NCBI GenBank assembly: GCA_028683835.1
Contig: JAQUHB010000008.1
Coordinates: 1 to 64,000 of the forward strand
Origin: Sulfurimonadaceae bacterium
GTDB lineage: Bacteria; Campylobacterota; Campylobacteria; Campylobacterales; Sulfurimonadaceae
Length of the DNA stretch: 64,000 bases
Direction: 5' to 3'
Below, one piece after another: positions 6,082 through 34,961 of the stretch. The notes under the pieces were generated by a model. It was not told the DNA's origin. It saw only the letters and a list, made by a program, of their open reading frames with translations, and did not search any database. Numbering within the stretch: position 1 is the first letter of the stretch; the number at the start of each line of letters is the position of its first letter. Position numbers and translations under genes: made by a program.

Positions 6082-7895
6082 CAGCTCACCATATTCAGAT
6101 GAAAATGAAAAGTCATAAATTTTTTCAATTTATTGACAACTTTAAAGCTGTCTTTGAGAAGATCTATCTCTATTTTTTGTAACTTTTTCGGATTGATATA
6201 GTTCATCTCGTCAAGATTTTTTGCTTCTAACATCGCTTGAAGTCTTATCGACGACAAAGTATCAAAACACTCAATAAGTTCTGTCGCAAATGTTTTGTCA
6301 AATGTCCCTTGATTGTTCAATGCTTTTATTCTCTCGATGGTGTTCGTTACATCGATTCTATACTCAAAAGAGAGTGTTCTTATCCCATGAACCAGGGCAA
6401 AAATACCCCCTTTTTTAAGATCAAGTTTATTTTCATGTTGTTTTTCTAAAATAAATCTTGAGAACAAAGAAAGCGGTGTTTCAAAACTTAAAGCCGCTTT
6501 TGCCATATGCGCGAGCACATCAGTCCGTGAACTAAAGTTACTGTGTAAGAAATTTTTGAGATTATCAAGTAAAGTTTTATCTCCCGCAAGAGATTTTGCA
6601 TCTAAAAAGATACTCAGACTTTGCAAACTATCCGAGCTTAAACTCTCAACCCAAATACTAATCTGCTCTTTATAAGCCGATTCACTTTGTCTCCAAAAAG
6701 GGTTACTTACCATTACATTGCCCGGACATGGCGGAAAGCCCAGATCAAGCAGATAAGCGTTTAAACGTATCATCGGTTCTTTAAAAAGTTCTATATCCAC
6801 TCCATCTCTAATAATAAGTGCATTGTCTTGATCCGTTTTTATACTCTGCTCTTCTCGACCCTCTGAGCCCATAACCAATAAAGCGCAATCTTTTTGCAAC
6901 TCTTCATCTACACAGATATCAAAAAGTTTTTTATAAATTTTTTCATTGAGAGTTGCGATGAGTTTTGTGATATAACGAACTTTTACCCCTTTTGCATCAA
7001 GGGAAATGATAATATTTTTAAGCTCTTTTTGAAGATTTTTCAACTCATCGAGATTTTCCGCTTTTTCTATTTGTACCATCACAAGATGAGAATGATTTGC
7101 AAAGTAACTTAAAAGGTCAAGCTGTTCGAGCACTCCCTTGACTTCACCTTTGTCTATAACAATGACTCTTTTAATACTTTTTTGTGTCATCAGTAAAAGA
7201 GCATTAAATAAAAAATCGTTGTAATCAATACTCACCACATTTTTTGAAGCGATCTTTTCAATAGACTCTTCAACCGATATCTTTCCTAAAAGAACACCTT
7301 CTTTAAGATTAGTGTCTGTAACGATGGCATAAGTTGTTGGAGTCTTAACCAAAATAATGCTGGCTTTTAACTCTTTTTGTCTGAGAAGCGCATCGTAAAT
7401 AGTTGTTCTCTCATCTACAATACAGGCATTATGAAGATAAATATCACTTATTTTTGCTATCAAAAACGGTGAGAGGTCGCTTTGGTTGTGGTACTCTTTG
7501 AGTTGTTGGTGACGACTTATGAAGTCTTGTAAAAAATAACTTTGTACATCTTTATTCTCTAAAAGAGTTAAAAAATCATCTTTTTTTATCTCATAGCAGA
7601 TAAGGTCTTCATCCACTACAAATTTTCCTTCTGTTTGTCCATAGATTAAGGCATCAGCATCAAAACTGTCACCTGAAACATAAAAATTATAAACTTCGTC
7701 ATCAATCAACTCTGAGACAGAACCTTTGATGATGATATAAAAAGCGATAGAAGAAAGCGTTTTAGAGATGAGCAGAGTCCCTCTTGGATAATAAGCAATA
7801 TCCATTTTTTGCATCAGATCATCCAGTATGGTTGGGCTTAAAAGCCCAAATGGGTGGATAGACTCGATTAGTTTTCTCTGCTCAAATATACTCAT
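6081..7895 (-). CDS. cNMP-binding, CBS and DUF294 nucleotidyltransferase protein
   Basis: The 604-residue protein is a cytoplasmic multidomain regulator. Residues ~15-125 resemble a cyclic-nucleotide-binding fold (YYPRGTLLI, IIKGSV). Residues ~145-275 form a CBS pair (VDERTTIYDAL and a second IDYNDFLFNALLLM repeat). Residues ~285-430 form a DUF294 GlnD-like nucleotidyltransferase with MGSEGREEQ and KTDQDNALI, and the C-terminus is the associated helical domain. The transferase motif looks intact. It is found with acs/actP in many bacteria, and presumably senses a nucleotide and controls acetate uptake or use; its target is not known to me. It lies two bases after the actP stop. Confidence 0.85.
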   Translation of the reverse strand: MSIFEQRKLIESIHPFGLLSPTILDDLMQKMDIAYYPRGTLLISKTLSSIAFYIIIKGSVSELIDDEVYNFYVSGDSFDADALIYGQTEGKFVVDEDLICYEIKKDDFLTLLENKDVQSYFLQDFISRHQQLKEYHNQSDLSPFLIAKISDIYLHNACIVDERTTIYDALLRQKELKASIILVKTPTTYAIVTDTNLKEGVLLGKISVEESIEKIASKNVVSIDYNDFLFNALLLMTQKSIKRVIVIDKGEVKGVLEQLDLLSYFANHSHLVMVQIEKAENLDELKNLQKELKNIIISLDAKGVKVRYITKLIATLNEKIYKKLFDICVDEELQKDCALLVMGSEGREEQSIKTDQDNALIIRDGVDIELFKEPMIRLNAYLLDLGFPPCPGNVMVSNPFWRQSESAYKEQISIWVESLSSDSLQSLSIFLDAKSLAGDKTLLDNLKNFLHSNFSSRTDVLAHMAKAALSFETPLSLFSRFILEKQHENKLDLKKGGIFALVHGIRTLSFEYRIDVTNTIERIKALNNQGTFDKTFATELIECFDTLSSIRLQAMLEAKNLDEMNYINPKKLQKIEIDLLKDSFKVVNKLKKFMTFHFHLNMVS

Positions 7896-7897
7896 GA

Positions 7898-9562
7898 TTA
7901 ATGCTCAGACGCACCTTCAGCACCGATACCAGTTTGACTTCTGATAAATTGTGCTTCAAAAGCTTCACGCTCAACTTTTGCACTCTCTGAATTATCTGTA
8001 ACTGAGAAGATATAGATTCCCACAAATGCCGCTATTACAGAAAATAGTGCCGGATATTTGTATGGAAAAATAGGTGCTGCATTTTTAAGTAAATCTACCC
8101 AAACAGTTGGTCCGAGAATTACAAGTATTACCGCTGTTGCAAGTCCAATAGCCCCACCTATAACAGCACCGCGAGTTGTCAGTTTTCTCCAGTACATAGA
8201 CAAGAAAAGGATCGGGAAGTTTGCAGATGCCGCAATAGCAAAAGCAAGACCCACAACAAACGCAATGTTTTGTTTCTCAAATGCAATACCCATGATGATA
8301 GCTACGATACCAAGTCCTACAGTCGCTATTTTAGAAACTTGCATCTCTTTAAGACCATCAACCTGCCCTTTTTTCCAGACAGAAGCATAAAGATCATGAG
8401 AGATTGCAGATGCGCCCGCAAGAGTCAGACCCGATACTACCGCTAAAATAGTAGCAAAAGCAACAGCTGAGATAAACCCTAAGAAGAAATCTCCACCAAC
8501 AGCATGTGCTAAGTGAATCGCTGCCATATCGTTTCCGCCTAAAATTGGAGAACCGCCATCAATCGCTTGTTTCGCCATATCCAAATATTGAGGGTTTTTG
8601 AAAACCATAACTATCGCACCAAAGCCGATGATAAAAGTTAATATATAAAAATACCCGATAAAACCTGTCGCATAAAAAACTGATTTACGTGCTTCTTTTG
8701 CATCACTCACTGTAAAAAATCTCATAAGTATATGTGGAAGACCAGCTGTACCAAACATCAACGCTACTGCAAGTGAGATAGCAGAGATCGGATCACTTAC
8801 AAGTTTACCCGGACTCATAATAGAGATATCTTTAAGTTCAGTCGCAGTTGCAAAAAGTTTTCCAAAACTAAAATCATAATGAGCCATAACAGCTATAGCC
8901 ATAAATGTAGCACCCGCAAGGAGTAAAAACGCTTTTACGATCTGTACCCAAGTCGTTGCAAGCATACCGCCGAATGTTACATAAAGAACCATCAATACAC
9001 CAACTAAGATAACAGCCACTTCGTACTGAAGACCAAAAAGAAGTTGGATAAGTTTACCAGAACCAACGATTTGAGCGATTAAATATAAAATAACTGTCGT
9101 GATAGAACCAAATGCCGCTAAAGTACGGATTGGCCCTTGGCGGAGTCTGTAAGACGCAACGTCTGCAAATGTGTATTTTCCAAGATTTCTTAAAGGTTCA
9201 GCAATCATGAAAAGAATGATCGGCCAACCAACTAGAAAACCGATAGAGTAGATAAGACCATCATACCCTTTCGCATAAACAAGACCTGAGATACCAAGAA
9301 AAGACGCCGCAGACATATAATCTCCCGCGATTGCCATACCATTTTGAAAACCTGTGATTCCCCCACCTGCTGTATAAAAATCTTTTGCACTTTTTGTACG
9401 TTTTGCAGCCCAGTAAGTAATACCCAAAGTAGCACCCACAAAGATAAAAAACATGACGATTGCCGACATATTTAATCCTTGTTTTTGCACTTCCCCTGTG
9501 ATTGCATCTGAAGCAAAAAGAGTGAGCGCAGAAAGAATTAAGAAAGTTAAAACTCTTTGCAT
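7898..9562 (-). CDS. actP: Cation/acetate symporter ActP
   Basis: This is a sodium:solute symporter of the inner membrane that imports acetate and related short monocarboxylates. The 554 residues include an N-terminal signal-like segment ([16 protein letters not shown]) typical of ActP and about 13 hydrophobic segments. SSS-family motifs include [20 protein letters not shown] near residues 65-84 and a [16 protein letters not shown] stretch near residue 270. The gene overlaps the yjcH stop by one base and precedes the cNMP/CBS protein. Operon context with acs confirms the assignment better than sequence alone, because SSS proteins vary in substrate. Confidence 0.94.
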
Positions 9563-25483: not shown

Positions 25484-26237
25484 GGGTTTACTTGTTTTCT
25501 TTACAATCTTTATAGTACTGCTTGGCGGTGCTATATACTACTCTACGACTATACAATCTCCATTTATATCACTTTCAAATGCCGTTCAAAACAGCTACTT
25601 TAACTCTATAAAATCTTTTTCTGATGGACTCGATGAACATTTTCATCAGCAACAACGCATACAAGAACTGACTCAAAAACTCGAACACTGTGATAGAGAT
25701 CATCTTCTTATGCAACAACTTTCATCAGAACTCAATAGTATTTACAAAGAAAGCAATACAACTCTCAAAACTGACCCTAACATCCAACTTGTACGCACTG
25801 TTTCTTATGTAAAGTTTTCAGATATCAATAAACTTTGGTTACAAATGAAGGATTTTAATTCTTCAAAAATTTATGGTCTTGTAGCTAAAGACAGTGTCGC
25901 AGGTATTGCAGTAGCCTATGGGAATAAACCTATCGCTCTTCTTAATGGAGATATGAAATGTACTTATACAGTTTATATTGGAGACAATAGTGCTCCTGGG
26001 ATTGCCCGAGGAAATAATGACGGTACCATTATCGTGAACTTCATTCCCTCTTGGATGTCCATAAAAGTGGGAGATGAAGTTGTTTCTTCAGGATTAGATA
26101 AACTTTTTTTCAAAGGGATGAAGGTAGGAAAGGTCACTGCAATTAAAACCTCACAAGGCTATCAAGTCGCTGTCGTCTCCCCTTATTATAAGTCAAAAGA
26201 ACCAAGATATTTTTATCTTATCAAAGAGGTATTATGA
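25476..26237 (+). CDS. mreC: Rod-shape determining protein MreC
   Basis: MreC is an inner-membrane protein whose periplasmic part scaffolds the elongation machinery. From ATG 25476 it has 253 residues: one transmembrane helix (residues ~4-24), a coiled coil (residues ~45-85) and the two beta-barrel lobes typical of MreC (VGDEVVSSGLDKLFFKGMKVG near the end). It overlaps mreB by eight bases and the following MipA-like gene by four (ATGA). No mreD follows, as in many Campylobacterota. Confidence 0.92.
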   Translation: MNKGLLVFFTIFIVLLGGAIYYSTTIQSPFISLSNAVQNSYFNSIKSFSDGLDEHFHQQQRIQELTQKLEHCDRDHLLMQQLSSELNSIYKESNTTLKTDPNIQLVRTVSYVKFSDINKLWLQMKDFNSSKIYGLVAKDSVAGIAVAYGNKPIALLNGDMKCTYTVYIGDNSAPGIARGNNDGTIIVNFIPSWMSIKVGDEVVSSGLDKLFFKGMKVGKVTAIKTSQGYQVAVVSPYYKSKEPRYFYLIKEVL

Positions 26238-26980
26238 AGTTTTTAGTTTTTTTATTTCTACTCATCACACAAATTGTTGCGCAAACGCAAACGACACCGT
26301 TGTCAATAGGTGCAGGTCCTTATTTTCAAACACAACCATATAAGGGTACTGACACAAAAGTAGTACCTTCACCAGTTGTATTTTTTGACAATAATCTTTT
26401 TTATGTCAGATGGACTCGCGTAGGCGTTTATTTTTTAGGAGATAAAAAAGATGATTTTAGCTGGGCATTTTCATTGAGTGCTGAACCCCAACCTTTAGGG
26501 TATGCCTCAAAAGATTCATCTGCTCTTGCTGGAATGAGTAATAAAGAGAGCAGTATTCAAGGGGGTCTTGGATTTGACATGAAGTATAAAGAAACTTTTT
26601 TCAATGCTGTTTTATTTCAAGATCTTTTAAACAACAGCAACTCATATATTGCAAGAGCCGAACTCGGACAACATATAAAACTTGACAATTGGGATCTATA
26701 TCCAAGTCTCATGGTAAGCTACCACGCAGCAAAGTTCAATGACTATTATTATGGCGTCAGTTCAAACGAAGCAACACCCCAAAGAGCAGCATATTCTCCA
26801 TCATCCAGTGTCGACCTCTCGTTTGAAAGCTACGCAAAATATGAGTTTTCAAAAGAGTGGTCTACTTTGCTCAACTTTCGTGCTGACTATCTAGGCAAGT
26901 CGGAGCAAAACTCTCCAATCGTTTCAGACAAATATATGTTCAGTGGTTTAGTTTCCGTAATGTACAAGTTTTATTTTTAA
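26234..26980 (+). CDS. MipA/OmpV-family outer-membrane protein
   Basis: The 248-residue precursor has a signal peptide (MKFLVFLFLLITQIVAQ) and a beta-barrel pattern, opening with IGAGPYFQTQPYKGTD and closing with MYKFYF, a terminal aromatic suited to outer-membrane assembly. The family includes MipA, a scaffold linking the lytic transglycosylase MltA to penicillin-binding proteins. The ATGA overlap with mreC ties it to wall elongation in this operon. A peptidoglycan role is plausible but inferred from context. A CTTACATGTTAAG near-palindrome follows its stop. Confidence 0.82.
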   Translation: MKFLVFLFLLITQIVAQTQTTPLSIGAGPYFQTQPYKGTDTKVVPSPVVFFDNNLFYVRWTRVGVYFLGDKKDDFSWAFSLSAEPQPLGYASKDSSALAGMSNKESSIQGGLGFDMKYKETFFNAVLFQDLLNNSNSYIARAELGQHIKLDNWDLYPSLMVSYHAAKFNDYYYGVSSNEATPQRAAYSPSSSVDLSFESYAKYEFSKEWSTLLNFRADYLGKSEQNSPIVSDKYMFSGLVSVMYKFYF

Positions 26981-27017: not shown

Positions 27018-27431
27018 TTAAAACTTAGTAGCTTTTGTCAACTTAGAAAAGTTAATACCCTTTAATCCACCAATCTTACCTGCAATTTTTTCCACTACAG
27101 AAGGTGTACCTTTAATCATTATAGTTTCAAGACAATTATTATGATCTATGTGAACGTGTGTTGTACATAAAATATTTACATGTTCATCATGCTGTATCTC
27201 AGCCATCTTTTGCAGTAATCCTCTTTGGTGATGATCATAAATAAGGGTCAAAACACCCACGACTTCCTCCTCTTCATTTTTCCAGCTCTCTTCAACAAGC
27301 TGTTCTCTGATAAGATCACGCATAAATTCAGAACGGGATACATGCCCTTTATCTAAAATTTGGCGATCCAATGCGATGAGAAGGTCCTCTTCTAATGAGA
27401 TACTAAAGCGTATTATCGCATCACTGGCCAT
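27018..27431 (-). CDS. nikR: Nickel-responsive regulator NikR
   Basis: The 137-residue regulator has an N-terminal ribbon-helix-helix domain ([18 protein letters not shown]) and a C-terminal ACT-like metal domain. All four nickel ligands are present with the canonical spacing: His81, His92, His94 and Cys100 in [25 protein letters not shown] Shine-Dalgarno precedes ATG. It is divergent from the TonB-dependent receptor, whose leader contains a match to a Helicobacter-type NikR box. It probably represses that receptor, and perhaps itself, when nickel is plentiful. Confidence 0.95.
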
Positions 27432-27540
27432 TGTAAAACTCCATCAACTAATTTTTTCTATTTTATCAAAAAACTGCTTTTGAAGATAAAAATTGAATAG
27501 ATATTCATGTTTTAATAAATATTTAAAGACAATACAGAAA

Positions 27541-27565
27541 TAATACTAAAATAAAAAAAATATTA
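27541..27565 (+). promoter_or_regulatory. Candidate NikR operator upstream of the TonB-dependent receptor
   Basis: TAATA, 15 bases, TATTA fits the TRWYA-N15-TRWYA pattern that I recall for Helicobacter NikR boxes. It is nested in a 7-base inverted repeat (AATAATA 27539-27545 and TATTATT 27561-27567). The repeat ends 13 bases before the receptor ATG, where a bound repressor would block initiation. AT-richness makes chance matches possible. Confidence 0.45.
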
Positions 27566-27580
27566 TTAAAAGGGAATTCT

Positions 27581-29623
27581 ATGAAGAAAAAGAGTTTACG
27601 CATCAGTAGAACTGCAGCAACACTTTTAATACCTCTAAGTGTTTTTGCCGGCGGAGAACAAAAAGTAGATAGTGCATTACTTCCGCAAATCACAGTACAA
27701 GCCCCGCAAGATGCACTTGATACAACAGATGCCGCAACTGAGGGAACGATCAGCGCAAAACAGATACAAAATAGACCTATTCTTCGTCCCGCAGAGGTGC
27801 TTGAGACAGTCCCTGGCCTCATTGTCACTCAGCATAGCGGCGATGGAAAAGCAAACCAATATTTTCTTCGCGGGTTTAGTCTTGATCATGGAACCGACTT
27901 TTATACCACGCTCGATGGAATGCCTATTAATCTACCGACCCATGCGCACGGACAAGGGTATAGTGATCTCAACTTTCTTATTCCTGAACTTATTTCGAAT
28001 ATAGAATATAAAAAAGGGCCATACTACGCAGATGAAGGAGATTTTGCATCGACAGGAAGTGCACACATCAAATACGCAGACTCTATGCCTTACGGCTTGG
28101 CAAGTGCCACGGTGGGAAGTTTTGAAAATAGAAGAGTTATGAATGCAGACTCTTATGACTTAGATGGCGGAAAACTTCTCTATGCCTTAGAGTATTATCA
28201 TAATAACGGTCCTTGGAAAATACCTGAAGGGTATGAAAGATTCAACGGTGTCGTGAGTTATGCAAAAAAAGACTCAGACAACAGCTACAAAGTAACTGCA
28301 ATGGCTTATAAAGGTGACTGGGATGCCACAAATCAAGTCCCTCTGCGAGCTATCAACGACGGTACAATCGACAGATATGGTTCACTCGATTCAAGTGACG
28401 GTGGAGGAACACACCGCTACAGTCTCTCATGCCAGTATACCCATTACGGTAGTGACGCTACCACAAAAGCCAATGCTTACATCATCGATTACGGACTCGA
28501 TCTTTTTTCAGATTTTACCTATTATCTCGATCATCCCACACAAGGAGATCAGTTTGAGCAAAAAGATTCCCGTACAATTATGGGAGCTTCTATCGAGCGA
28601 ATAAGCAGCGGTTCCCTATTTGGTAAAGAGAGTATCAACACTTACGGTTTGCAAGTTCGTAACGATTTTATTGAAGTCGGTCTTTATAACACCCAAGATC
28701 GCCAACGCTTTAATACGGTAAGTCTTGACCATGTACAAGAAACAAGTGCGGGACTCTACTATCAAAATGAAATGACGCTTACAGATAAAATACGCGCAAT
28801 TGCCGGAATAAGAGGCGATCTATTTCGATTTGAGGATAAAAGTGACGTAGTTACATCAAACTCCAGAACAAAAAGCGCAGGAGTTTTAAGTCCCAAACTC
28901 AGTTTAATTTTTGGTCCGTGGGCAGATACAGAGATCTTTTTAAACGGCGGCTATGGATACCATAGCAACGACGCGCGCGGTGTGACTCAATCTAGTGATG
29001 CCGCGACTCCACTTGTTGTCACAAAAGGCGCAGAGATCGGCGTAAGAACACAGGCGATAGAACATTTGCAAAGTTCACTTGCATTTTGGATGATGGATAG
29101 CGATTCGGAACTTGTTTTTGCAGGTGATACTGGCGGTACAGAACCTACAGGTCCTGCTCGACGTATGGGAATAGAATGGGCTAACTACTGGACACCAAAA
29201 CCGTGGTTTATATTAGATGCCGATTTTGCACTCTCTCAAGCTCGCTACAAAAACCCCTCAGAGTCAGGTGGAGCATATGTACCAGAAGCGATGGAGAAAA
29301 CGGCATCGATCGGAGCGACAGTCACCGGATATAAAGAGTATTTCGGTGGTATGCGTCTGAGATACTTCGGAAGCCGCGCTTTAATCGAAGATAATTCTGT
29401 CCGCTCACAACCTTCTACTCTTGTTAATCTAAAAGCAGGACGCCATTTAACAAAACAGATCGATTTAAGCTTTGATGTTTTAAACCTCTTTAACACTCAA
29501 ACCTATGACATAGAATACTATTATGAATCTCAAATGAAAACAGAAAGCTCTTCTGTGAACGATTATATGGTGCATCCGGGAGAACCACGCTCTATACGAC
29601 TGACACTCAGTTATAAGTATTAA
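27581..29623 (+). CDS. TonB-dependent outer-membrane receptor, probably for nickel
   Basis: The 680-residue receptor has a signal peptide (residues 1-22, ending SVFAGG), a plug domain (residues ~35-160) with the TonB-box-like segment LPQITVQAPQ, and PGLIVTQHSGDGKANQYFLRG. A 22-strand barrel follows, ending LTLSYKY. A good Shine-Dalgarno (AGGGA) precedes ATG. It is divergent from nikR with a candidate NikR box, and followed by exbB-exbD-tonB, so it likely imports nickel or a nickel complex. Its last ~60 codons are repeated in diverged form at 31383-31577. The nickel assignment is inferred from context. Confidence 0.87.
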   Translation: MKKKSLRISRTAATLLIPLSVFAGGEQKVDSALLPQITVQAPQDALDTTDAATEGTISAKQIQNRPILRPAEVLETVPGLIVTQHSGDGKANQYFLRGFSLDHGTDFYTTLDGMPINLPTHAHGQGYSDLNFLIPELISNIEYKKGPYYADEGDFASTGSAHIKYADSMPYGLASATVGSFENRRVMNADSYDLDGGKLLYALEYYHNNGPWKIPEGYERFNGVVSYAKKDSDNSYKVTAMAYKGDWDATNQVPLRAINDGTIDRYGSLDSSDGGGTHRYSLSCQYTHYGSDATTKANAYIIDYGLDLFSDFTYYLDHPTQGDQFEQKDSRTIMGASIERISSGSLFGKESINTYGLQVRNDFIEVGLYNTQDRQRFNTVSLDHVQETSAGLYYQNEMTLTDKIRAIAGIRGDLFRFEDKSDVVTSNSRTKSAGVLSPKLSLIFGPWADTEIFLNGGYGYHSNDARGVTQSSDAATPLVVTKGAEIGVRTQAIEHLQSSLAFWMMDSDSELVFAGDTGGTEPTGPARRMGIEWANYWTPKPWFILDADFALSQARYKNPSESGGAYVPEAMEKTASIGATVTGYKEYFGGMRLRYFGSRALIEDNSVRSQPSTLVNLKAGRHLTKQIDLSFDVLNLFNTQTYDIEYYYESQMKTESSSVNDYMVHPGEPRSIRLTLSYKY

Positions 29624-29637
29624 TAACTACTTGCTAA

Positions 29638-29868
29638 ATTTTAAAAAATCAAACGGCTCCCTCATATGTAACGGTTGATTTAAAAGTAAGCAAACAGCTC
29701 GATAAAAACTTCAATATCTATGCAGGAGCTAAAAATCTGTTTGCTTATGTGCAAACAGATAAACAATTGCCTCTCTTTTATGATAGGGCAGGAAATATAG
29801 ATGTGGGTTACATCTGGTACCCACTTCGTAACAGAACACTCTACACAGGTATAAAAGCAACATTTTAA
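29638..29868 (+). pseudogene. 5'-truncated remnant of a second TonB-dependent receptor
   Basis: An open frame with no plausible start encodes about 76 residues that form the last barrel strands of a TonB-dependent receptor. Visible are TVDLKVSKQLDKNFNIYAGA, then KNLFAYV, and near the stop YIWYPLRNRTLYTGIKATF. It is not similar to the end of the intact receptor at 27581-29623, so it derives from a different receptor gene. Its stop falls directly at the exbB Shine-Dalgarno (TAAGGAG). The lost gene was therefore probably the native first gene of a receptor-exbB-exbD-tonB operon. The 5' part is missing; the break is between 29624 and about 29645. Confidence 0.75.
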
Positions 29869-29878
29869 GGAGTAAACA

Positions 29879-30307
29879 ATGCAACAACACTACAAAGATA
29901 TTTTAGACATCGTCATCTTCGCCCTTTTGGGACTTATGAGTATCATCTCATTTGGTGTGGGGTTTGAGAGAACCCTTTTTTACAAACGCTTACATGTAAG
30001 CGAGTATACAAATAAAAAAGAGCTTGAGATTGATCTTGGAAACAACCTCACCATCATCTCAACCATCGCATCCAATGCTCCCTATGTGGGGCTTTTGGGT
30101 ACGGTGTTTGGGATCATCCTCACTTTCTTTACCATTGGGGCAAACGGCATGACAGACAGCGGGGCTATTATGACGGGCCTTGCCCTTGCACTCAAAGCCA
30201 CTGCTTTTGGTCTGCTTGTGGCGATTCCCTCTATTGTCTTTCACAATTACCTTGTAAGAAAGATGGAGGTGCTTTTAATGAGATGGGATATTCACAATGG
30301 CGATTAA
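29879..30307 (+). CDS. exbB: ExbB/TolQ-type proton-channel protein
   Basis: ExbB uses the proton gradient to energise TonB at the inner membrane. At 142 residues it is the short form usual in Helicobacter and relatives. Three transmembrane helices are seen: residues ~10-27, ~62-84 (APYVGLLGTVFGIILTF, the conserved channel motif) and ~98-120 (ALALKATAFGLLVAIPSIV). AAGGAG lies seven bases before ATG. It overlaps exbD by 11 bases. A perfect CGCTTACATGTAAGCG 16-base palindrome (29987-30002) lies inside, read as Leu-His-Val-Ser. Confidence 0.92.
   Translation: MQQHYKDILDIVIFALLGLMSIISFGVGFERTLFYKRLHVSEYTNKKELEIDLGNNLTIISTIASNAPYVGLLGTVFGIILTFFTIGANGMTDSGAIMTGLALALKATAFGLLVAIPSIVFHNYLVRKMEVLLMRWDIHNGD
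29987..30002. repeat. CTTACATGTAAG palindrome, copy 4, extended to 16 bases
   Basis: Inside exbB. CGCTTACATGTAAGCG is palindromic over 16 bases and is read as Leu-His-Val-Ser. Confidence 0.8.
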
Positions 30308-30674
30308 AAAGATAGAATCGATAAACGTCATTCCCTTTATCGATATCATGCTCGTACTTCTTGCCATTGTCTTGACTACTGCTACTTTTATAGCAAAAGG
30401 GGCTATCAAAGTCGATCTTCCAAAAGCATCTGCTGCGAGTGCGAAGGTAGAAAAACCCCATGATATCACTCTGACTAAAGAGGGTAAACTCTATCTTGAC
30501 GGTGTTGCCACAACAAACGAAAAACTGCTTAGCTCTCTTGGCACTGTTTCAAAAGAGACGACTATTATCATTAACGGTGATGCGAAGATGAACTATGAGT
30601 ATTTCGTGAGTACGATCGATACTCTCACAAATGCGGGGTACACTCATCTCTCTATCAGTACAAAAAAAGAATGA
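30297..30674 (+). CDS. exbD: ExbD/TolR-type biopolymer transport protein
   Basis: The 125-residue protein has one N-terminal transmembrane helix with the essential membrane Asp in INVIPFIDIMLVLLAIVL (about residue 16) and a small periplasmic domain ending in the ISTKKE tail. It pairs with ExbB to drive TonB. It overlaps exbB by 11 bases and ends four bases before the tonB ATG. Confidence 0.93.
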   Translation: MAIKKIESINVIPFIDIMLVLLAIVLTTATFIAKGAIKVDLPKASAASAKVEKPHDITLTKEGKLYLDGVATTNEKLLSSLGTVSKETTIIINGDAKMNYEYFVSTIDTLTNAGYTHLSISTKKE

Positions 30675-30678
30675 TACT

Positions 30679-31368
30679 ATGCTAAAGAAAAGTATCGCAC
30701 TCTCTACGCTCTTACATGTAAGCGTGGGAGCCGCTCTTTTTTTTCTCTTCATATTGCAACATCCACCTATAAAGCCAAAGGTAGTTTCCATCACTTTTGT
30801 GGCACTCCCGACACACTTACATGTAGAGCAAAAAAAGATTGAATCCCAACTAAAACAAAGTGTGCAAAAACCCTTACTTGTAAAGCAGCAAGAGGTCAAA
30901 CAACCGCCTTTGCCTGTGCAAGAAAGTAAGCCTATAGTAAAACAAGAAGAGATCAAAAAAACTGTTGAGACAAAACCTATTGAAACCAAAACACTAGAGA
31001 AGCCAAAAGAGGTTATCAAAGAGACTCCGCCTCAGGTAAAAAAGGTCGAACCTACACTCGCTAGTGCTGAGAGTAAAAATATAAAAAACAGATATCTAGG
31101 GATTATTTATCAAAGTATCGATAAGCTCAAAGTGTATCCAAAGAATGCCAAAAGGCTTGGACAAAGCGGAACTGCCAAAGTAACCTTTACTGTTTTGGCG
31201 GATGGAACTATAACAAATATCTCACTCAAAGACTCATCGGGATTTGCCACCCTTGACGATGCGGCCAAAAAGATACTCATCACTCTGGCAAAAACTGCCC
31301 CCATACCAAAGGAACTCAATGAGCAAAACATGAGTATTACTGTGCCTATTGTTTATAAAGTGGAGTAA
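30679..31368 (+). CDS. tonB: TonB energy-transducing protein
   Basis: From ATG 30679 the protein has 229 residues: one N-terminal transmembrane helix (residues ~10-28), a long Lys/Pro/Glu/Gln-rich periplasmic linker (residues ~40-135), and a C-terminal TonB domain (residues ~140-229). That domain shows the YPKNAKRLGQSGTAKVTFTV signature and SITVPIVYKVE at the end. It spans the periplasm to energise the receptor upstream. A perfect CTTACATGTAAG (30711) and a 10-of-12 copy (30816) lie in its first 150 bases, unusually dense. Confidence 0.93.
   Translation: MLKKSIALSTLLHVSVGAALFFLFILQHPPIKPKVVSITFVALPTHLHVEQKKIESQLKQSVQKPLLVKQQEVKQPPLPVQESKPIVKQEEIKKTVETKPIETKTLEKPKEVIKETPPQVKKVEPTLASAESKNIKNRYLGIIYQSIDKLKVYPKNAKRLGQSGTAKVTFTVLADGTITNISLKDSSGFATLDDAAKKILITLAKTAPIPKELNEQNMSITVPIVYKVE
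30711..30722. repeat. Perfect CTTACATGTAAG palindrome, copy 5
   Basis: Inside tonB, read as Leu-His-Val-Ser. A 10-of-12 copy follows at 30816-30827. Confidence 0.8.
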
Positions 31369-31382
31369 CACATAAACCTTAA

Positions 31383-31577
31383 TGTCAATCTCTGTTAATA
31401 GCAGGACACCATTTAAATTTAAGCTTTGATGTTTTAAACCTCTTTAACACTCAAACCTATGACATAGAATACTATTATGAATCTCAAATGAAAACTGAAA
31501 GCTCTTCTGTGAACGGTTATATGGTGCATCCGGGAGAACCGCGTTCTATACGGCTGACACTCAGTTATAAATATTAG
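31383..31577 (+). pseudogene. Diverged duplicate of the TonB-dependent receptor 3' end
   Basis: Bases ~31401-31577 align with the last ~190 bases of the intact receptor (about 29435-29623). There are roughly nine substitutions, an in-frame loss of 12 bases (removing Thr-Lys-Gln-Ile and changing the next residue), and a 5-base deletion at the 5' edge. Most substitutions are silent (aca/act, cca/ccg, cgc/cgt, cga/cgg, aag/aaa); Asp to Gly and Arg to His are the clear replacements. The frame stays open for about 58 codons to its own TAG. There is no start, so it is a non-functional fragment derived from a once-functional homologue. Confidence 0.85.
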
Positions 31578-31661
31578 TTTCTTCCATGTAAAGGGATTGA
31601 GAATCTTTACATAGAAACCATTTTTCCTTTAAAAATCATCAAATTTTAAGTGCTTTTTTCG

Positions 31662-31667
31662 TATAAT
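31662..31667 (+). promoter_or_regulatory. -10 box of carB
   Basis: A perfect TATAAT lies 36 bases before the carB ATG, giving a leader of about 30 bases with an AAAGG Shine-Dalgarno. No clear -35 is seen. Confidence 0.5.
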
Positions 31668-31703
31668 AAAAAAATTTTGTACAAACTTTTCTAAAGGTTA
31701 AAA

Positions 31704-34700
31704 ATGCCAAAACGCACTGATATAAAAACCATACTTTTAATTGGATCAGGTCCGATCATCATCGGTCAAGCTTGTGAATTTGATTATTCCGGAACTCAAG
31801 CAGTAAAGACTCTTAAAGAGCTTGGATATAGAGTTGTCCTTATCAACTCAAATCCGGCAACAATTATGACTGACCCAGAATTTGCAGACCGCACATATAT
31901 CGAACCAATCAAAGAAGATATCATTGCCGAGATAATAAAAAAAGAAAAAGTTGATGCTATTCTTCCTACAATGGGTGGACAAACAGCACTTAACGTCGCA
32001 ATGAAAATGCATGAAAAAGGGATGTTGGAGGGAATTGAGTTCCTTGGAGCAAACCCTGAGGCTATTCATAAAGGTGAAGATAGACAAGCTTTTAAAGAAG
32101 CAATGCTAAAACTCGGTATGGACCTTCCGTTTTCCAGATATGCTTACAATCTTGATGAAGCGGTGAGCGCAGCTGAAGAGATAGGTTTTCCAACTATCAT
32201 CCGTGCTTCGTTTACTCTAGCAGGCGGAGGGAGCGGAGTCGCTTATAACATCGACGAATTCAAAAAGCTTGCAGCTCGCGGTCTTGCAGAATCTCCTGTG
32301 AATGAAATCTTGATCGAAGAATCTCTTCTTGGCTGGAAAGAGTATGAGATGGAAGTTATCCGTGATAAAGCAGATAACTGCATCATCGTATGTTCTATAG
32401 AAAACTTCGACCCGATGGGTGTTCATACGGGCGATAGTATTACGGTTGCACCTGCACTGACACTTACAGATAAAGAGTATCAGCGTATGCGTGATGCTTC
32501 ATTTGCTATTCTTCGTGAGATCGGTGTTGACACGGGCGGAAGTAATGTTCAATTCTCAGTTGATCCTAAAACCGGACGTATGATCGTTATCGAGATGAAT
32601 CCTCGTGTTTCTCGTTCATCTGCTCTTGCAAGTAAAGCAACAGGATATCCTATCGCAAAAGTTGCAACACTTTTAGCTGTGGGCTTTACTCTTGATGAGA
32701 TCGAAAACGACATCACCGGAACGCCTGCGGCATTTGAACCGGTTATCGATTATATCGTGACAAAGATCCCTCGCTTTACTTTTGAAAAATTCCCTGAAGC
32801 TGAAAATACACTAAGTACGAGTATGAAATCAGTCGGTGAAGTTATGGCGATCGGACGTACTTTTAAAGAGTCAGTACAAAAAGCACTTTGTTCTTTAGAA
32901 ACGGGACTTCGAGGCTTTGACGAACTTGACTGTGATGATGAGACAATGATTCATGAGATCCGTCGTCCAAATGCTGACCGTATCCTTTATGTTGCAGAAG
33001 GCTTTAGACGCGGTATGAGTGTTGAAGATATCTTCAATGCTTGTAAAATCGATCCATGGTTTTTATGCCAACTAGAAGAGATCATCAACGCAGAAAAAAC
33101 AATTACAACAGAAACTTTAAAAGATGAGAAAGTTTTGAGAAAACTCAAATCTGACGGCTTTTCAGATATGAAAATTGCTCAACTTATCGAGAAAAACTCT
33201 TCTCAAAAAGTTAGTGAAAACGATGTTTATACGGCGAGAAAAGCTCTTGATATCCATTTAGAATACAACGAAGTAGACACTTGTGCGGCTGAATTTTTAG
33301 CACTTACTCCATATTTGTATTCAACGACAAACATCACAAAACTTCCAGATGTCAAACCTCGTCAAAGCGATAGAAAAAAAGTAATGATCATTGGTGGCGG
33401 ACCAAACAGAATCGGTCAAGGGATTGAGTTTGACTACTGTTGTGTTCACGCGGCATTTGCTCTTAAAGAGATGGATATCGAGACTATCATGTACAACTGT
33501 AATCCTGAAACAGTTTCCACAGATTATGATACTTCAGATGTTCTTTACTTCGAACCTATCGATTTTGAACATGTCCGCGAAGTGATCGAGAATGAAAAAC
33601 CAGACGGAATCATCGTGCATTTTGGCGGTCAAACTCCGCTTAAACTTGCAAATGCTCTTACAAATATCGGAGCAAATATCTCAGGAACGACAGCGGCAGT
33701 TATCGACCTTGCTGAGGATAGAGAAAAGTTCTCAGAGTTTGTAATCAACAACAATCTCAAACAACCGGAAAATGGTCTTGCTCGTACAAAAGAGGAATCT
33801 TATGTTATAGCACAAAGACTTGGTTATCCAGTTTTAGTTCGCCCATCTTATGTTCTTGGCGGGCGTGGAATGCGCATTGTTTACAATGAGGATGAACTCA
33901 AAAAATATATGGATCTTGCAGTTTCTGTTAGCAATGATGCTCCAGTTTTAGTGGACAAATTTCTAGATCAGGCAATTGAACTTGATGTCGATGCTATTTG
34001 TGATGGCGTAGATGTCTATATCGGCTCAGTCATGCAACACATCGAAGAAGCGGGAATCCACTCAGGCGACAGCGCTTGTTCATTACCTCCTATGAATCTT
34101 ACCGATACGATGATCAGACAAGTGGAAGAGCAGACAAAAACTATCGCTCTTGGTCTTGGTGTTCGCGGTCTTATGAATGTTCAGTATGCTATTTATGAAG
34201 GTGAGATCTATCTTATCGAGGTCAATCCTCGTGCTTCTCGTACAGTTCCATTTGTTAGTAAAGCGACAGGGATTCCTTTAGCAAAAGTCGCTACTCGCGT
34301 TATGATGGGGGAAACACTGAGAAGCGCTTTAGAGTATTATGACAAATATGATGTTGTGATGGAAGAAGACACAATCTTAAAACCTCGCCTTAAAAACCAT
34401 GTCGCAGTAAAAGAAGCAGTTTTCCCTTTCAATAAACTCTATGGCGCAGACTTGGTGTTGAGTCCTGAGATGAAGTCTACGGGGGAAGTTATGGGTATAA
34501 GTAAAAACTTCGGTATCAGTTTTGCAAAAGCGCAACTCGCAGCCGGAAACAATATCCCGACATCTGGAACAGCGTTTTTATCTTTCATCGATATGGATAA
34601 AAAACACGCGCCGGAAATCGCAAAAGGTCTTATCGATCACGGCTTTAAAATTATCGCGACTGGTGGAACAGCGAAGATTATTAATGATGCTGGTCTTGCG

Positions 34701-34961
34701 TGTGAAACTGTTCTAAAGATTTCAGAAGGTCGTCCAAATATCGAAGACCGTATGAAAAATGGAGAGATTCAATTGGCTATAAACACTTCAGATAATAACA
34801 CATCAAAAAAAGATGCTGTTGTGATCCGTCAAGAAGTTTTACGCCGTAATATTCCATATTTTACAACTCTCAGTGCAACTCGTGCAACGATAGAGGCTTT
34901 GGGTGAGATGAAAGATCCTGCTTGGAATGAACCTCAAGCTTTACAGGATTTTTTAGCTTAA
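31704..34961 (+). CDS. carB: Carbamoyl-phosphate synthase large subunit
   Basis: CarB makes carbamoyl phosphate for arginine and pyrimidine synthesis with the CarA amidotransferase. The 1085 residues have the usual tandem ATP-grasp halves. Each opens with a paired [19 protein letters not shown] / [17 protein letters not shown] stretch and contains an EMNPR or EVNPR metal site. The C-terminal methylglyoxal-synthase-like regulatory domain (residues ~945-1085, [14 protein letters not shown]) is complete. In Campylobacter jejuni carB closely follows mreC; here the nikR-to-tonB segment lies between them. It probably leads the operon to the right. Confidence 0.98.

Follow-up and report, generated by a model that had tools for sequence, protein, structure and literature searches.

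Between mipA and carB, the genome of a sulfur-oxidising member of the Sulfurimonadaceae (GenBank assembly GCA_028683835.1) has a 4.6-kb block of genes that probably serve nickel uptake. The block lies on contig JAQUHB010000008.1, of which we analyzed positions 1 to 64,000 (the window, meaning this whole stretch of 64,000 nucleotides). From left to right the genes are mipA, nikR on the minus strand, an intact gene for a TonB-dependent receptor (TBDR A), the 3′ end of a receptor of a second family (fragment B, of the TBDR B family), exbB, exbD, tonB, a decayed second copy of the TBDR A 3′ end (fragment A′) and carB. On balance, we lean towards the view that the segment is a nickel-uptake island specific to this lineage, put together in two or more steps and serving the supply of nickel to [NiFe] hydrogenases.

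The first-pass annotation of this DNA had taken the segment to interrupt a conserved gene block, and comparison with relatives bears this out. DNA 5′ of carB was collected from 39 of 59 relatives (36 of the family and 3 of the order, the other 20 order-level relatives being left aside), with one genome per species, and 35 of these stretches include mreC and are informative (G014, G016, G023 and G026 are not). The distance from mreC to carB is 51–1,628 bp in all 35, against 5,466 bp in the window, and nikR, TBDR A, TBDR B (represented in the family and locus searches by a 571-residue part of a 700-residue protein), exbB and exbD are absent between the two genes in every one of them. The left flank is a gene for a MipA-like outer-membrane protein (26234–26980, plus strand; Pfam MipA, E 6.5e-39) that adjoins carB in all seven congeners, ending 115–169 bp before it. 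The right flank is carB itself (31704–34961, plus strand), whose product shares 91–97% amino acid identity with those of five congeners and 82–83% with those of the other two, preceded by a native spacer (31578–31703) that aligns with the mipA-carB spacer of the congeners. A shared arrangement was looked for in the close relatives, and none of the seven congeners has the segment, supporting the conclusion that it is peculiar to this species among the genomes compared.

The two receptor 3′ ends reported on either side of exbB-exbD-tonB are real, as alignments to TBDR A and to a second receptor of the same genome demonstrate. Fragment B (29643–29868, plus strand; 74 codons plus stop) aligns with the final part of a receptor gene on contig C15 of this genome, G000 (positions 1508–1733), with 70% identity in both DNA and amino acids (E 3e-26 for the DNA). 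Similarity to C15 starts at 29643, 19 bp past the stop codon of TBDR A (27581–29623, plus strand), and extends through exbB-exbD-tonB (29643–31355, 70.8% DNA identity), so that this part of the segment is collinear with the receptor-exbB-exbD-tonB locus of C15. A receptor of the fragment B type is intact 5′ of exbB-exbD-tonB both on C15 and on contig C78 of the congener G001. By these alignments, fragment B is the truncated 3′ part of the receptor gene usually found ahead of exbB-exbD-tonB, carried along with the module. A 10-bp stem with a 6-base loop, followed by a minus-strand T run, lies inside fragment B at 29735–29760 and was not seen in the aligned C15 copy.

Fragment A′ (31391–31577, plus strand, the left edge being approximate) starts about 22 bp past the tonB stop codon and duplicates the final 190 bases or so of TBDR A, aligning with 29430–29622 over 193 columns at 89.6% identity (E 7e-72). 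It carries deletions of 5 and 12 bp, neither of which was found in the TBDR A genes of relatives, and passes within a few bases into the spacer common to the mipA-carB region of the congeners. Eight substitutions, six of them silent, separate A from A′ in their final 162 bp (the first is uncertain, because it touches a deletion). In a freely decaying copy, at least six silent changes in eight would arise with a probability of 0.001 under equal rates and 0.02 with transitions only. Most of the changes therefore seem to have arisen under selection, as would be expected if A′ is the remnant of one allele and A represents another, or if the changes fell in A.

The earlier proposal that the segment was assembled by recombination between receptor genes holds in part. 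Assembly in more than one step stands, and fragment A′, which alone repeats the intact receptor, speaks for recombination within a receptor gene. The fragments, however, derive from two different receptor families, and since fragment B is the usual 5′ neighbour of exbB-exbD-tonB, recombination between receptors A and B is not required by the data. Fragment A′ abuts the native carB 5′ region, and therefore TBDR A probably stood beside carB before fragment B-exbB-exbD-tonB entered. We envisage a first step in which a nikR-TBDR A cassette with its regulatory region would have entered the mipA-carB spacer, and a second in which a truncated TBDR B tail and exbB-exbD-tonB would have joined into the TBDR A 3′ end. 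For the second step, the likeliest route would pair a homologous crossover within TBDR A at one end with an illegitimate join beyond tonB at the other, a combination that would keep the whole of TBDR A upstream and leave its old 3′ end beside carB as fragment A′. A single event of this kind would account for the layout, as would a tandem array that later lost parts by deletion.

The regulator-receptor cassette itself has a patchy distribution. TBDR A is found in three of the eight genus genomes and nikR in two, and of 228 family genomes 51 contain TBDR A matches (E 1e-3), only 14 of them, own genome included, at 64% identity or more. The gene for NikR, the nickel-responsive regulator (27018–27431, minus strand), is 150 bp from TBDR A in the window and lies within 6 kb of the receptor in 18 of 46 named TBDR A-family loci, among them loci of Betaproteobacteria at 46–51% receptor identity. 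The surroundings of nikR-TBDR A differ from genome to genome: beside a DUF695 gene and hypA in the congener G002, next to a nitrogenase-type gene in Sulfuricurvum G110, and near ferredoxin-like genes, as judged by eye, in G096. TBDR A also occurs without an adjacent nikR, divergent from a TBDR B-type receptor in Sulfuricurvum G092, and in G001 (contig C4, locus L091, 2655–11926), where a group II intron reverse transcriptase comes after it and three integrase-like genes lie beyond, one of which was confirmed by Pfam as a phage-type integrase. The cassette thus wanders between loci. Sixty-residue windows along TBDR A give no clean change of nearest relative, and a mosaic receptor was rejected.

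This mobility bears on a different history, which we regard as possible if unlikely, in which the segment was put together elsewhere, either in a donor or at a different locus, before entering the mipA-carB spacer whole, with both fragments in place. The parts can evidently meet, given that nikR-TBDR A wanders and that a TBDR B-type receptor stands beside TBDR A in G092. Among the loci read, however, none of the 228 family genomes has TBDR A together with this type of exbB at a single place, and the exact ending of fragment A′ at the native spacer would be a coincidence. That the genus's native nikR-TBDR A moved here from beside hypA is possible but not favoured: the receptor tree does join the window with G002 and G001, but the amino acid identity of the window proteins to those of G002 is only 74% for TBDR A and 72% for NikR, compared with 97% for CarB. 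The present genome has DNA matching both flanks of the G002 hypA site, and nikR-TBDR A is absent there. At that site (L143, G000:C57:22000-37000, at about 6750–8500) two genes, of PAS and chemoreceptor type by eye, occupy the place of the G002 nikR-TBDR A.

Returning to the stepwise island, its likely function is NikR-controlled outer-membrane uptake of nickel for [NiFe] hydrogenase, genes for which are present in this genome, with a TonB energiser of its own as in Helicobacter. The window NikR is of the standard type, with an N-terminal RHH_1 domain and NikR_C (E 1.5e-28) both above Pfam cut-offs and NCBIfam NikR models also above theirs. A His/Cys-rich stretch is conserved in all five aligned NikR sequences, and we take it to contain the nickel ligands. 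Two elements recur at near-constant spacing in all seven divergent nikR-receptor intergenic regions: TGAAY-N4-RTTCA, in the window the palindrome TGAAT-N4-ATTCA (27494–27507; chance expectation 0.82 per 64 kb), and TAATA-N15-TAWTA, in the window the candidate NikR operator TAATA-N15-TATTA (27541–27565; chance expectation 0.99 per 64 kb). The latter is found in none of five receptor upstream regions that lack an adjacent nikR. Both motifs were derived from the same seven sequences, which amount to fewer than seven independent cases because two of the pairs are nearly identical. The half-site spacing of TAATA-N15-TAWTA equals that of the Helicobacter pylori NikR consensus, reported as TRTTA-N15-TAWTA (PMC5385501), and four of the seven intergenic regions score 10/10 against that consensus, a score reached by 11 to 31 of 300 shuffles. 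When nickel is plentiful, NikR would repress the receptor promoter; when it is scarce, TBDR A would carry nickel, in complexed form, through the outer membrane with energy from the downstream ExbB-ExbD-TonB, and the imported nickel would serve the [NiFe] hydrogenases. No plus-strand terminator-like site was found between TBDR A and exbB (29623–29879), so the exbB-exbD-tonB genes may be co-transcribed with TBDR A from its promoter, as a case of operon capture.

Assignment of a nickel complex as the substrate of TBDR A is putative, and we consider it rather unlikely that the receptor imports another cargo, such as a siderophore or cobalamin, its proximity to nikR reflecting shared control or chance. 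Both the Plug (59.6 bits) and β-barrel (TonB_dep_Rec_b-barrel, 72.1 bits) domains of TBDR A exceed their Pfam cut-offs. The best NCBIfam match is to the siderophore-receptor model TIGR01783, at 85.2 bits below its cut-off of 223.5, followed by B12-receptor models far below theirs, and a profile search found no relative of known structure. At least 19 of the 46 named receptor loci (28 of 46) show no nikR in the DNA examined. Against another cargo stands the recurrence, across distantly related bacteria, of nikR near the receptor, with hypA, NicO or hydrogenase genes alongside in some cases; at one locus (L163) a TBDR A-family receptor is surrounded by genes for NikR, a NicO permease and a subunit of [NiFe] hydrogenase.

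The energiser module comprises exbB (29879–30307), exbD (30297–30674) and tonB (30679–31368), all on the plus strand. ExbB matches Pfam MotA_ExbB and passes the exbB2 equivalog model TIGR02805 (164.7 bits, cut-off 135.35); ExbD matches the general Pfam ExbD family (E 4e-27) and misses the ExbD_2 equivalog TIGR02804 (108.1 bits, cut-off 123.45); TonB matches Pfam TonB_C (E 1.2e-17, 64.6 bits, cut-off 24.6). Together with the matches of nikR and TBDR A, these bear out the coordinates and gene calls of the first-pass annotation. On C15 and in G001:C78 the receptor-exbB-exbD-tonB genes stand beside the same helicase-like gene, and these loci are probably the genus's own copy; the window module has about 71–75% DNA identity to both. 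Internal duplication of the C15 locus seems very unlikely as the origin of the module. It is true that within the family ExbB is most similar to that of C15 (84%), and that C15 also gives the closest match to fragment B in 398 order genomes, only five of which match it at E 1e-8 (C15 at 70%, the four others at 59–64%). Recent internal copying was nevertheless rejected on divergence: the module has 70.8% DNA identity to C15, ExbB and ExbD together are 84.6% identical to those of C15 and 79.7% to those of G001, and exbB third positions are 49% identical, no closer than to G001 (56%). More generally, both parts of the segment show about 69–77% DNA identity to all copies compared, a level too low for either to have arisen by recent local duplication. 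The end of contig C15 (L056, 1–22) lies about 20 bp past the stop codon of the second tonB, and the sequence beyond the intact receptor-exbB-exbD-tonB locus is cut off there.

That the arrangement is an assembly artefact appears highly improbable. The genome is a draft of 88 contigs, and it is probably a metagenome-assembled genome because its nearest named relatives are. The two copies of the TBDR A end, however, differ at eight aligned positions and by deletions, each flank leads into the neighbour to be expected there, and the contig that encloses the whole arrangement is 98.6 kb long. Ancestry of the segment followed by loss in all relatives is scarcely credible, for we found no evidence in its support, the segment is absent from all 35 informative relatives of family and order, and relatives that have the parts carry them at other loci.

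Several observations weigh against a stepwise island of this kind. The intermediate that it calls for, mipA-nikR-TBDR A-carB without the module, was not found among the genomes compared, and searches of the family and order returned no exact donor for either part. The substitutions that are silent between A and A′ may also have arisen in A itself, the working copy. The receptor tree groups the window with G002 and G001 (86/86), leaving long-distance transfer of TBDR A unsupported; such a grouping fits transfer within the genus or fast evolution. Finally, the intergenic region of the window itself scores 9/10 against the H. pylori NikR consensus, a score reached by 103 of 300 shuffles.

A side result concerns a 10-bp perfect palindrome, TTACATGTAA, which may matter more than the nickel insert. 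It occurs seven times in the window (at 406, 865, 14747, 20687, 29990, 30712 and 46866), compared with 0.14 expected, and 321 times in the whole genome, compared with once for the reversed control; each of the eight genus genomes has 48–756 copies. Among 61 sampled genomes of the family it is abundant in the genera g1 (7 sampled), g3 (866 and 896 copies in two genomes), g5 (193–354 in four), g6 (794 and 1,061 in two) and one g2 genome (G114, 340), and the other 45 have only 0–10 copies. The base at −1 is C in 71 of 112 strand readings. The palindrome resembles highly iterated palindromes or DNA uptake sequences. A text search of the literature for this sequence, together with a broader search, gave nothing evidently on this palindrome among the matches listed. 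The nickel segment ends at near-copies of it (26985 and 31582, one mismatch each), and its exbB-exbD-tonB module holds two exact copies (29990 and 30712). The empty mipA-carB sites of the congeners also carry copies, and a causal link to the insertion is therefore speculative. We think it quite unlikely, but worth stating, that the palindrome might be an uptake or recombination signal of the clade, through which nickel-uptake cassettes would move by preferential uptake or recombination of DNA bearing it.

The segment may represent a nickel-uptake operon caught in mid-assembly, in which a regulator-receptor cassette gains an energiser module and the scars show the source of the pieces. It also draws attention to a TBDR family of Campylobacterota, Betaproteobacteria and Verrucomicrobia that is tied to NikR and in places to hydrogenase genes, a tie that offers a testable role in nickel uptake for receptors that would otherwise be classed close to siderophore receptors.

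The kind of system is already known and the arrangement is new. H. pylori combines NikR, ExbB2-ExbD2-TonB2 and FrpB4 (PMC5385501, PMC13367063, PMC3856676), the same component types as in the window, with nikR likewise divergent from one of them. There, TonB2-ExbB2-ExbD2 is needed for nickel, a tonB2 mutant having less nickel and less urease activity (PMC13367063). The half-sites of the candidate operator in the window are 15 nt apart, as are those of the H. pylori operator. In H. pylori nikR is divergent from exbB2-exbD2-tonB2 (PMC5385501), whereas in the window the gene opposite nikR is that of the receptor, with the energiser further downstream behind a receptor scar. The likeness of TBDR A to FrpB4 is one of gene content and nikR linkage. 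NikH of Helicobacter mustelae, presented in PMC3856676 as a NikR-linked TonB-dependent nickel receptor in the Campylobacterota, is likened to TBDR A by linkage. The C15 and G001:C78 loci are collinear with fragment B-exbB-exbD-tonB but have an intact receptor and a different genomic place. In homology-facilitated illegitimate recombination (PMC3240628), one end joined by homology and the other illegitimately would give a whole gene at one junction and a residual piece at the other, and the footprint around exbB-exbD-tonB suggests that a similar process operated here.

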